From assembly GCF_000017165.1 (NCBI RefSeq), contig NC_009634.1, forward strand, positions 1,286,552 to 1,350,551: a stretch of 64,000 nt of DNA. The letters are read 5' to 3'. Source of the DNA: Methanococcus vannielii SB (GTDB taxonomy: Archaea > AGJL01 > Methanococci > Methanococcales > Methanococcaceae). Both the position numbers and the translations under genes were made by a program. Every line of letters begins with the position of its first letter. Positions within the stretch are counted from its first letter, which is position 1. The notes below the pieces were generated by a model. It saw only the letters and a list, made by a program, of their open reading frames with translations, did no database searches and was not told the origin of the DNA. Of this stretch, positions 4,543 through 8,027 are shown piece after piece.

Positions 4543-5322
4543 CTATTCTATATTTTCAGTAGCCTTCTTTTTTTCAGCCTCTTCGTTTTCTACTTTTATT
4601 TTATCATATACTTTTTTTACAATTTTTTCAATTTCAAAAACAGTTATTTTTTCGACCAATTTTCCGGTATCTTTTACAATTGCCATGTCTATATTTTCAG
4701 GCTTTAATTCTTCAGTAGTTTTACTTAAAGCGTAAATTGCAAGTTCCATACCTTCACTAACGCTCATATTTTCGTCGTATTTTTCTTCAAGAATTTCCAT
4801 TGCAACAGGCCGTCCTGAACCGATTGCAGTAGCTTTGTATTCAATTAAAGCTCCACTAGGGTCAGTTTCAAAGAGCCTTGCACTGTGTCTATCAATTCCG
4901 GTTATCAAAAGTGCCAAACCAAAAGGCCTTGCACCTCCGTGGTGAGTATACGCTTGTTTAATATCGCAGATTTTTTTTGCAAGTGCTTCGACAGTAATCG
5001 CTTCGCCATATGATATTCTATTTACTTGAGCTTCAACCCTTGCCCTATCAATTAAAACTCTTGCATCAGCAACCAGACCTGATGTAGCAGCTACAATATG
5101 GTCGTCAATTTGAAATATCTTTTCAATTGATGAAACATCAATTAATTTACTTGTAATTCTTCTGTCAACGGCTAAAACAACACCGTCTTTACATTTAATG
5201 CCTACCGCAGTAGTTCCTCGCCTTACGGCTTCTCGTGCATATTCTACCTGGTAAAGTCGTCCTTCTGGGCTGAATATGGTTATTGCCCTATCGTATCCTG
5301 ATGCTGGAACCATTTGTTGCAT
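4543..5322 (-). CDS. psmA: Proteasome alpha subunit
   Basis: The 259-residue protein begins MQQMVPASGYDRAITIFSPEG, which includes the alpha-ring signature (YDRAITIFSPEGRLYQVEYA). It lacks the N-terminal Thr nucleophile of beta subunits, as expected. Alpha subunits form the outer rings and gate of the 20S proteasome. The C-terminus has a Lys/Glu-rich extension. A strong GAGGAGG site precedes the ATG. It heads the superoperon, and its promoter region is shared with the divergent selenoprotein gene. Confidence 0.97.
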   Translation of the reverse strand: MQQMVPASGYDRAITIFSPEGRLYQVEYAREAVRRGTTAVGIKCKDGVVLAVDRRITSKLIDVSSIEKIFQIDDHIVAATSGLVADARVLIDRARVEAQVNRISYGEAITVEALAKKICDIKQAYTHHGGARPFGLALLITGIDRHSARLFETDPSGALIEYKATAIGSGRPVAMEILEEKYDENMSVSEGMELAIYALSKTTEELKPENIDMAIVKDTGKLVEKITVFEIEKIVKKVYDKIKVENEEAEKKKATENIE

Positions 5323-5411: not shown

Positions 5412-5493
5412 ATCCTTTTTATACTGAATTTCTTGTCTAACAATATTAATATATTAGAAAATCTAATGTATTTACATATAGGAAGGTGAAATT

Positions 5494-5790
5494 ATGATAC
5501 CTGTAACTATATCCGATGAAGCATTGGAATTTATTTCCGAAAAATTAAAAAATGCTAATAAAAAGGATATTATAGTTTTTTTTGAGGGCTTCGGCTGAGG
5601 AGGGCCTAAATTTGGAATAGATGTAGCAAGCAAAATCATGGATACGGATGAAAAAATTTTTGAAGGCGAATTTAATATCTATATTGATAAAATGGCAAAA
5701 CAGGTATTAAATGAAGTCTATATAATTGTTAAAAAGTCCGTATTTAGTGGTAAATACCTTGCAGTTAAGGGAGCTGGCGGCTGCTGTTAA
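5494..5790 (+). CDS. HesB/IscA-like selenoprotein (in-frame UGA = Sec35)
   Basis: The ATG at 5494 follows an AGGTG site, and the frame runs to TAA at 5788-5790 with one in-frame TGA at 5596-5598. Reading it as selenocysteine gives 98 residues: MIPVTISDEALEFISEKL, then EGFG-Sec-GGPKFG, and a C-terminus ending KGAGGCC. The HesB/IscA family places a cysteine near residue 35 and a C-terminal cysteine pair; Sec takes the place of the first and CC the second. HesB-like selenoproteins are an established family in methanococci. The conserved sequence continues normally after the TGA, which argues against a pseudogene. The exact function of this version is unknown; Fe-S or metal handling is inferred from the fold. 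Confidence 0.87.
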
Positions 5791-5817
5791 TTAAAAACCT
5801 GAAATCAGGATTAATAA
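5788..5817 (+). promoter_or_regulatory. Candidate archaeal SECIS element in the 3' UTR
   Basis: Directly after the stop codon lies a hairpin: TTAA (5791-5794), AAA, CCTG (5798-5801), loop AAAT, CAGG (5806-5809), A, TTAA (5811-5814). This has the shape of an archaeal SECIS, with a lower helix, an asymmetric purine internal loop with three bases on the 5' side and one A on the 3' side, and a short upper helix. Archaeal SECIS elements sit in the 3' UTR, as here. The known consensus internal loop is GAA/A, whereas this one reads AAA/A. The lower helix is all A-U. Confidence 0.55.
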
Positions 5818-5906
5818 CTTAACCGCCATTAATATTTATTTTTTTAATTTTTTTAATCGTTGTAATTTACCGATGTTATTTTATTAAATTTAATTTAGAT
5901 TATAAT

Positions 5907-8027
5907 TTACTTTAACTTATTTTGAATGACGATTAAGGCATCCCCAACAATTCCCCCGTGGCCTTCTTCTTTTATAAATGCAGGGTTAATATCGATTTCA
6001 AGTATTTCATTGTAAACTTCCATTAAAACGCCAACTCGAACCATAAGTTCTTTTAAGTAATTTATATCGCTTCTTTTTTCGCCCCTGACTCCCTCAAGTA
6101 TCTTGTAGGATTTTAAAGACTTTATAATTTCTTCTGCATACTCTTCAGTTATTGGTGAAATTCCAAAAGACACGTCCTTTAAAACCTCTACAAATATTCC
6201 TCCAAGTCCTGTCATAACAACAGGGCCAAATACGGGGTCTCTTTTTGCGCCTATTATTATTTCTTTTCCTAAAATATATTCTTCCACTAAAACGCCATCG
6301 ATTATTCCATCAACATTTTTTTCACTTAGATACTTTTCTCCATTTTTAATAATAGTTTCAAAAGCCTCTTTAATATTCGCAGGATTTATTATTACACAGC
6401 CTGCGTCAGATTTATGCGGTATGTTTGATGAAACAACTTTCATTACAACTTTTCCTAAACTTTTAGCGTAAGTTTCAGCTTCTTCAACCGATTTTGCAAC
6501 AAACTTTTTAGGAATATTAAAACCGTTTAACTTTAAAAATTCTTTTGAGTTACTTTCATTTGGATTTTCAAGTAATTCTTTAATTAAGACGTGATTATCT
6601 TTTTTAACACTTGAAACTTCTTTTCTAATTTTATTTAGATATTCTGGACTGTCATATTTGTCACGTAATATACTTTGCCGGTATAAACATGCTAAAGCTT
6701 TAACTGCAAGTTCCGGGCATATAAATGCTGGAATTCCTTTTTCTTGTAGGTAACTTCTAGATTCCATCACTGAACCTCCGCCTACAAAAGATGCAACAAT
6801 TGGCATTTTTTCATTTTTACATATCATGTAGTTTTTAAGCTTTACAAGTTCCCTTGAAACTCCTAATGAATCAGTCATTCCTTGTGGAGTTAGTATCACC
6901 AGTAAACCGTCAATATTTTTGTCTTTTTCAATTAATTCAAATGCATGCCGGTATCTTTCAACATCTGCATCACCAATTAAATCAAGCGGATTTGAAATTT
7001 TGGACGTTTCGGGTAAATATTTTTTTAATTCTAAAACCGTCTCTTTAGAAAATTTTGCAAGTTCAAGTCCGTATTTATCAACAGAATCAGCTGCTAAAAC
7101 TCCAAATCCCCCCGCATTTGTTACAACGGCAATTCGATTTGACTTCATACGGGGTTGGACTGAAAATATTTTTAAAAGGTTTACAAGGTCTTCAAAGCCT
7201 TCAACGTTAAAAACACGGCTTTTTTTAAATGCTGCATTATATACTTCGGAATTTCCAGCAAGACTTCCAGTATGTGAGGATACTGCTTTTGCACCTTCTT
7301 TAGACCTTCCGCTTTTTAATACTATAACTGGCTTTTTTCTTGAAATTCTTTTTGCAGCAGAAATAAATTTTCCGTCTTTTAATCCTTCAATGTAAAGGGC
7401 AATTACTTTTGTATTGGGGTCATTTTCAAGGTACCTTAATATTTCATCCTCTTGAATATCAATTTTATTTCCCATGCTAACTATTTTTGAAAAACCTAAA
7501 TTGGAATACTCTGCAATATCAAGTAATGCAGTTAAAATAGCTCCACTTTGAGATATAAATGCAATATTTCCTATTTTTGAAAATTCTTTACTAAACGAAG
7601 CATTAAGATTACTGTAGAGGTTGATAACCCCAAGACAGTTTGGCCCAATTGTTCTAATTTTATATTTATCGATTACATTTTTTAGTTTAAGTTCTAAATC
7701 TTTATTATCTGATTCCGAAAATCCTGCGGTAATTATTATTGCAGATTTTATGCCTTTTTTTCCGCATTCCTCCATTGCATCAACGGTGTATTCTGCAGGT
7801 ATTGCTAAAATTACTAGGTCAATTGCATCTTCAATATTCAAAATAGAATTGTAACATTTAATTCCATAAATTTCATTGTATTTTCTATTCACAGGAAATA
7901 GTTTTCCGCCGTGTTCTTTAAATTTCATTAAATTTTTCATTACGGATTGACCAACTTTTCCTTCTGTTTCTGTTGCACCAATCAATGCAACGGATTTTGG
8001 GTTGAATATTCCTTCAAGTTCGCTCAA
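5907..8027 (-). CDS. acd: ADP-forming acyl-CoA (acetyl-CoA) synthetase, fused alpha-beta
   Basis: The 706-residue protein has a CoA-binding and ligase region (residues 1-455; start GIFNPKSVALIGATETEGKV) with the phosphohistidine motif SSHTGSLAGN near residue 255. An ATP-grasp region follows (about 480-700), with KVVSSNIPHKSDAGCV and EIDINPAF. This order is that of single-chain archaeal ACDs, which convert acyl-CoA, ADP and phosphate into the acid, CoA and ATP. The start is TTG with a GGGGAT site; no better ATG exists. It may conserve energy from acyl-CoA made by 2-oxoacid oxidoreductases such as the one at 56356-58932. Substrate range cannot be read from sequence. Confidence 0.9.
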   Translation of the reverse strand: MSELEGIFNPKSVALIGATETEGKVGQSVMKNLMKFKEHGGKLFPVNRKYNEIYGIKCYNSILNIEDAIDLVILAIPAEYTVDAMEECGKKGIKSAIIITAGFSESDNKDLELKLKNVIDKYKIRTIGPNCLGVINLYSNLNASFSKEFSKIGNIAFISQSGAILTALLDIAEYSNLGFSKIVSMGNKIDIQEDEILRYLENDPNTKVIALYIEGLKDGKFISAAKRISRKKPVIVLKSGRSKEGAKAVSSHTGSLAGNSEVYNAAFKKSRVFNVEGFEDLVNLLKIFSVQPRMKSNRIAVVTNAGGFGVLAADSVDKYGLELAKFSKETVLELKKYLPETSKISNPLDLIGDADVERYRHAFELIEKDKNIDGLLVILTPQGMTDSLGVSRELVKLKNYMICKNEKMPIVASFVGGGSVMESRSYLQEKGIPAFICPELAVKALACLYRQSILRDKYDSPEYLNKIRKEVSSVKKDNHVLIKELLENPNESNSKEFLKLNGFNIPKKFVAKSVEEAETYAKSLGKVVMKVVSSNIPHKSDAGCVIINPANIKEAFETIIKNGEKYLSEKNVDGIIDGVLVEEYILGKEIIIGAKRDPVFGPVVMTGLGGIFVEVLKDVSFGISPITEEYAEEIIKSLKSYKILEGVRGEKRSDINYLKELMVRVGVLMEVYNEILEIDINPAFIKEEGHGGIVGDALIVIQNKLK

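Follow-up and report, generated by a model that had tools for sequence, protein, structure and literature searches.

We found that a HesB-like gene in Methanococcus vannielii SB is very likely a conserved archaeal selenoprotein gene whose in-frame UGA codon is read as selenocysteine (Sec). The gene lies in a stretch of 64,000 nucleotides, the whole of which we analyzed and call the window. The decoding of UGA codon 35 as Sec is well supported by the Sec machinery of the genome, by homologues that read through the codon, by purifying selection, and by a SECIS-like hairpin that overlaps the stop codon. The gene belongs to a known selenoprotein family, as the M. vannielii orthologue of a member described in another species: mutagenesis and 75Se labeling showed the HesB-like protein of M. 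maripaludis to be a selenoprotein, its disruption left nitrogen fixation unimpaired (PMC11097638), and HesB-like protein is listed among archaeal selenoproteins (PMC2933860, PMC13188914).

The gene, here called hesB, was recognized from its sequence, profile matches, and homologues and occupies positions 5494..5790 of the forward strand, with an ATG start at 5494, 98 codons, and a TAA stop at 5788-5790. AGGAAGGTGA stands shortly before the ATG, and the ribosome-binding site read from the sequence, GGAAGGTGA (5481..5489, forward strand), lies just 5' of it. The in-frame TGA (5596..5598, forward strand) is codon 35 and falls inside EGFG-U-GGPKFG, a UxGP motif (GUGGPKF); beyond it, the frame contains no other stop or frameshift. 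The translation, MIPVTISDEALEFISEKLKNANKKDIIVFFEGFGUGGPKFGIDVASKIMDTDEKIFEGEFNIYIDKMAKQVLNEVYIIVKKSVFSGKYLAVKGAGGCC, ends in GGCC, the codons of Cys97 and Cys98 being at 5782..5787 (forward strand; from the sequence and an alignment of 26 orthologues). Rereading the sequence reproduced exactly what a sequence-only reading had described, a 98-residue frame with a good ribosome site, a TGA at 5596-5598, and a Cys-Cys end, and the gene was indeed missing from the standard list of open reading frames. The same reading had predicted that gene callers will miss the gene, which is true of ordinary ORF calling and fits a score below the TIGR01911 cut-off, but an NCBI model exists and the family is listed in reviews. 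The host genome is a single contig of 1,720,048 bases, and searching it with PF01521 gave hesB, with its one internal TGA, as the sole match. The gene is flanked upstream by a divergent psmA (4543-5322, reverse strand) and downstream by a convergent acyl-CoA synthetase-like gene (5907-8027, reverse strand), both named from sequence; of the loci compared, most have the divergent psmA on the upstream side, and many have the acyl-CoA synthetase-like gene on the downstream side. Reading the neighbors of hesB within the window revealed no Fe-S assembly gene.

To assess the conservation of the UGA codon, we considered relatives from the host's genus, family, and order. Among 35 related Methanococcales genomes searched, all 33 full hesB homologues contained exactly one TGA, and in all 26 that were aligned it was at the identical residue; three further, weak matches from the same search carried no stop. 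In named genomes, an alignment-based scan found six hesB relatives, all from Methanocaldococcaceae or Methanothermococcus, and a scan with a single hesB sequence gave no match. The sequence-only reading had seen its claim as threatened by homologues ending at the TGA or by a sequencing error there; with 33 of 33 reading through, the former was not observed, and the latter is no explanation since the TGA is common to all relatives. Comparison of the window gene with its three closest orthologues (Nei–Gojobori) gave, for the codons after the TGA, a pN of 0.08 versus a pS of 0.68-0.76, and a dN/dS of 0.03-0.05 where computable. The codons after the TGA are constrained no less strongly than those before it, indicating that the downstream part is translated and important.

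The archaeal Sec-decoding trait is complete in the host genome, with tRNA-Sec (60.8 bits) and SelB (388.5 bits) both over their cut-offs, SepSecS (E=1.5e-169), PSTK (E=1.7e-123), and a SelD that itself has an in-frame TGA. Of the genes that the sequence-only reading had proposed looking for, selB, selD, and tRNA-Sec were thus found; selA was misplaced in that list, as archaea use PSTK and SepSecS. The concern that the genome might have no Sec machinery is removed by the full archaeal set, through which codon 35 would be decoded as Sec. Further selenoprotein genes with in-frame TGA are those of HdrA, VhuD (two TGA codons), FwuB, FruA, and two FdhA, and the 3' region of vhuU carries a SECIS. The second fdhA (L082:2491-4522, forward strand) has its UGA and is broken up into two frames that overlap; this suggests a frameshift or a sequence error. 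In three related genomes (G022, G026, and G031; loci L095, L096, and L104), vhuD has one TGA and not two, and one Sec position has probably changed there.

The protein matches PF01521 above the cut-off (E=8e-8) and, over nearly its full length, the selenoprotein profile TIGR01911 (HesB_rel_seleno) with 62.7 bits (E=3.7e-17), 3.6 bits under the cut-off of 66.35. Same-genus orthologues also score below it (59.5 for L005 and 61.1 for L006), so the cut-off excludes the host's genus, while the tested Methanocaldococcus members are far above it (141 for L027). Against TIGR00049, ErpA, and NF038090, the window protein falls well short of the curated cut-offs. An AlphaFold2 model based on seven sequences reached a mean pLDDT of 87.8, and its best PDB matches were IscA with [2Fe-2S], HI1723, AQ_1857, and SufA, each with a probability of 1.0; the last four residues are modeled at low confidence, and the Sec–Cys geometry is not readable from the model. 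The protein thus shares the IscA fold with the IscA/ErpA/SufA carriers of PF01521. As the sequence-only reading had stated of HesB/IscA proteins, these have a Cys at the position of the TGA: in the profile alignment, Sec35 falls on a Cys of HI1723, the conserved first cluster ligand of IscA/ErpA proteins. IscA proteins have three Cys ligands, and in IscA-type proteins the cluster can lie between subunits that each contribute few ligands (1x0g). The window protein differs from these carriers in having Sec for Cys and one conserved C-terminal Cys only: the full set of three ligands (C-x(n)-CGC) is lacking, and Sec35 and Cys98 are conserved instead, Cys98 being kept in 25 of 26 orthologues and Cys97 varying.

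The IscA fold makes plausible the role of Fe-S or metal carrier that the sequence-only reading proposed; it is the most likely mechanism, and we give it an even chance. Sec35 and the C-terminal Cys would bind or transfer an Fe-S cluster or, alternatively, some other soft metal or a sulfur or selenium species. The main alternative to the carrier mechanism is a Sec–Cys redox couple, in which Sec35 and the terminal Cys would join in a selenenylsulfide and the protein would not be an Fe-S carrier. In its favor, only one C-terminal Cys (Cys98, 25/26) is conserved, whereas IscA proteins have three Cys ligands, and many selenoproteins are redox proteins; against this, both the fold and the family of IscA have a link to Fe-S clusters, and clusters of the IscA type can be held at an interface by few ligands from each subunit. 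We consider the redox role possible, at somewhat lower odds than the carrier role.

The sequence-only reading overlooked the SECIS element of the gene. We built a covariance model from 23 distinct hesB 3' UTR hairpins of relatives and the host's own selD hairpin, leaving the window hesB out. The model hairpins share a basal stem, a GAA bulge, a C–G apical stem, and an opposing A; those of the relatives covary, with 88.7% of cells paired and a covariation score of 0.632, compared with 0.235 in shuffled controls and no more than 0.284 after a one-column shift. In the 64-kb window, the model gave a single match up to E=10, at 5784..5821 on the forward strand (18.6 bits, E=0.049), which folds with a 3:1 internal loop (z=-2.7) and whose basal stem overlaps the hesB stop codon. 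It has the features of a SECIS, namely a basal stem, a 3:1 purine bulge in which both the invariant AA and the opposing A are present (AAA at 5795-5797 opposite A 5810), and an apical GC clamp within a 4-bp stem (CCTG/CAGG, 5798-5801/5806-5809), all on the forward strand, and lies 199 nt from the UGA, compared with 190-214 nt in relatives. A simple structural scan of both window strands found zero GAA-type and five AAA-type structures, of which this alone sits at the homologous place behind a UGA gene; it is also the only SECIS-type structure near hesB. Rfam, applied both at the gathering threshold and at relaxed ones, detected no SECIS at the window hesB, which is why we built a model from relatives, and a search of the pattern CCGAACC..GGAGG matched the selD and vhuU elements only. 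The insertion signal would be a hairpin starting at the stop codon, with an attenuated AAA/A kink motif.

Compared with TIGR01911 and M. maripaludis MMJJ_08070, the window gene is alike in family, size, UxGP motif, Sec position, and the presence of a 3' SECIS, and its protein is 70-81% identical to same-genus HesB-like orthologues; the AAA/A kink instead of GAA/A is the one difference found. The first bulge base is A and not the consensus G, making this the only non-GAA bulge among the aligned hesB elements, and the basal G–C clamp is replaced by A–U, a clamp that the hesB elements of same-genus relatives lack likewise. In M. maripaludis, the change of GAA to AAA in the fruA SECIS caused a moderate loss, to 298 mU/mg in vivo (Peiter et al. 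2025, PMC11881835). The first bulge base was found to be tolerant, the reduction being moderate with A and fourfold with C, while the two A residues after it are invariant (PMC11881835). Changing the basal G–C clamp to U–A cost about 40% of activity. With the natural AAA/A SECIS of M. maripaludis fwuB, activity was about half that of the reference (PMC11881835); this SECIS shows the same G-to-A change with AA and the opposing A kept, and the window element differs from it by its hesB setting, A–U basal clamp, and 4-bp apical stem. Both invariant A residues are present in the window bulge. The G at the first bulge position thus belongs to the consensus but does not define the element, and equating AAA/A with a dead SECIS, which we considered, was rejected since mutagenesis shows AAA/A to be active (PMC11881835). 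The vhuD SECIS of the host genome (L079:11426, reverse strand) is also AAA/A (ACGAG-AAA-CC..GG-A-CTCGT), as are, by inspection, those in the vhuD 3' UTRs of three further genomes from the genus (L086-L088). In the methanogen selenoprotein and SECIS literature cited here, we found no description of an AAA/A SECIS of hesB. From these comparisons, we infer a lowered strength and regard the window SECIS as probably functional but weak.

Of the hesB SECIS elements compared, the window hairpin scores lowest (18.6 bits versus 36.4 for L003 and 44.1 for L027). Together with its unique bulge, this would be expected of a decaying relic, where the G-to-A change marks a degrading SECIS and translation mostly stops at the UGA to give a 34-residue fragment. 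Strong purifying selection on the region after the TGA, an intact frame, and the experimental activity of AAA/A (PMC11881835) and its use by the host's own vhuD make such decay very improbable, and we retain a selenoprotein with an attenuated signal as the preferred reading.

Three genomes of the Methanocaldococcus group have a UGA-containing hesB, strongly constrained after the UGA, and no recognizable SECIS near it: in G029 (L020), the hairpin is reduced to its outer stem, and in G027 (L026) and G033 (L025), no SECIS was found from -600 to +1300 nt. The usual downstream neighbor of hesB is missing in the latter two, which suggests a rearrangement right after the stop. Between G027 and G033, the hesB region after the UGA shows zero amino-acid changes at a pS of 0.20. 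Some Methanocaldococcus hesB genes might use an undescribed Sec signal, with the AAA/A of the window as a less far-reaching relaxation of the signal in a nonessential selenoprotein; we think this unlikely, although less so than decay of the window gene. Near-cognate suppression of the UGA by Cys, Trp, or another residue without Sec, to which these three genomes and the known SECIS-independent UGA suppression of <1% in M. maripaludis (PMC9622424) could point, is scarcely credible given the complete Sec machinery and SECIS-like element of the host, the alignment of the position with the ligand Cys of IscA/ErpA proteins, and a level of read-through unlikely to sustain the observed selection. The sequence-only claim that the UGA is read as Sec therefore stands, supported by the machinery, the read-through homologues, the selection after the TGA, and the hairpin at the stop codon.

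An apparent loss of a different kind is seen in G004, a complete Methanococcus genome, where we found no tRNA-Sec above the Rfam cut-off and no Sec-type VhuD. Comparing its loci L003 and L120-L131 with loci L124 and L132-L134 of G001, we found that about 40 kb without detectable similarity replaces the approximately 30-kb vhu/hdr/tRNA-Sec block of G001, the flanks being collinear. G004 still has a UGA-containing hesB (L003) with a canonical hesB SECIS, as well as SepSecS. Judging by tRNA-Sec, VhuD, and SepSecS, the Sec genes considered, this looks like a recent loss of Sec decoding.

These results correct the annotation of a gene dropped by ordinary ORF calling and provide one more natural example of an AAA/A SECIS, of which few have been described. 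The genomes that keep hesB after losing the SECIS or tRNA-Sec provide a natural test of what an archaeal Sec signal needs and of the speed at which an orphaned selenoprotein gene decays.
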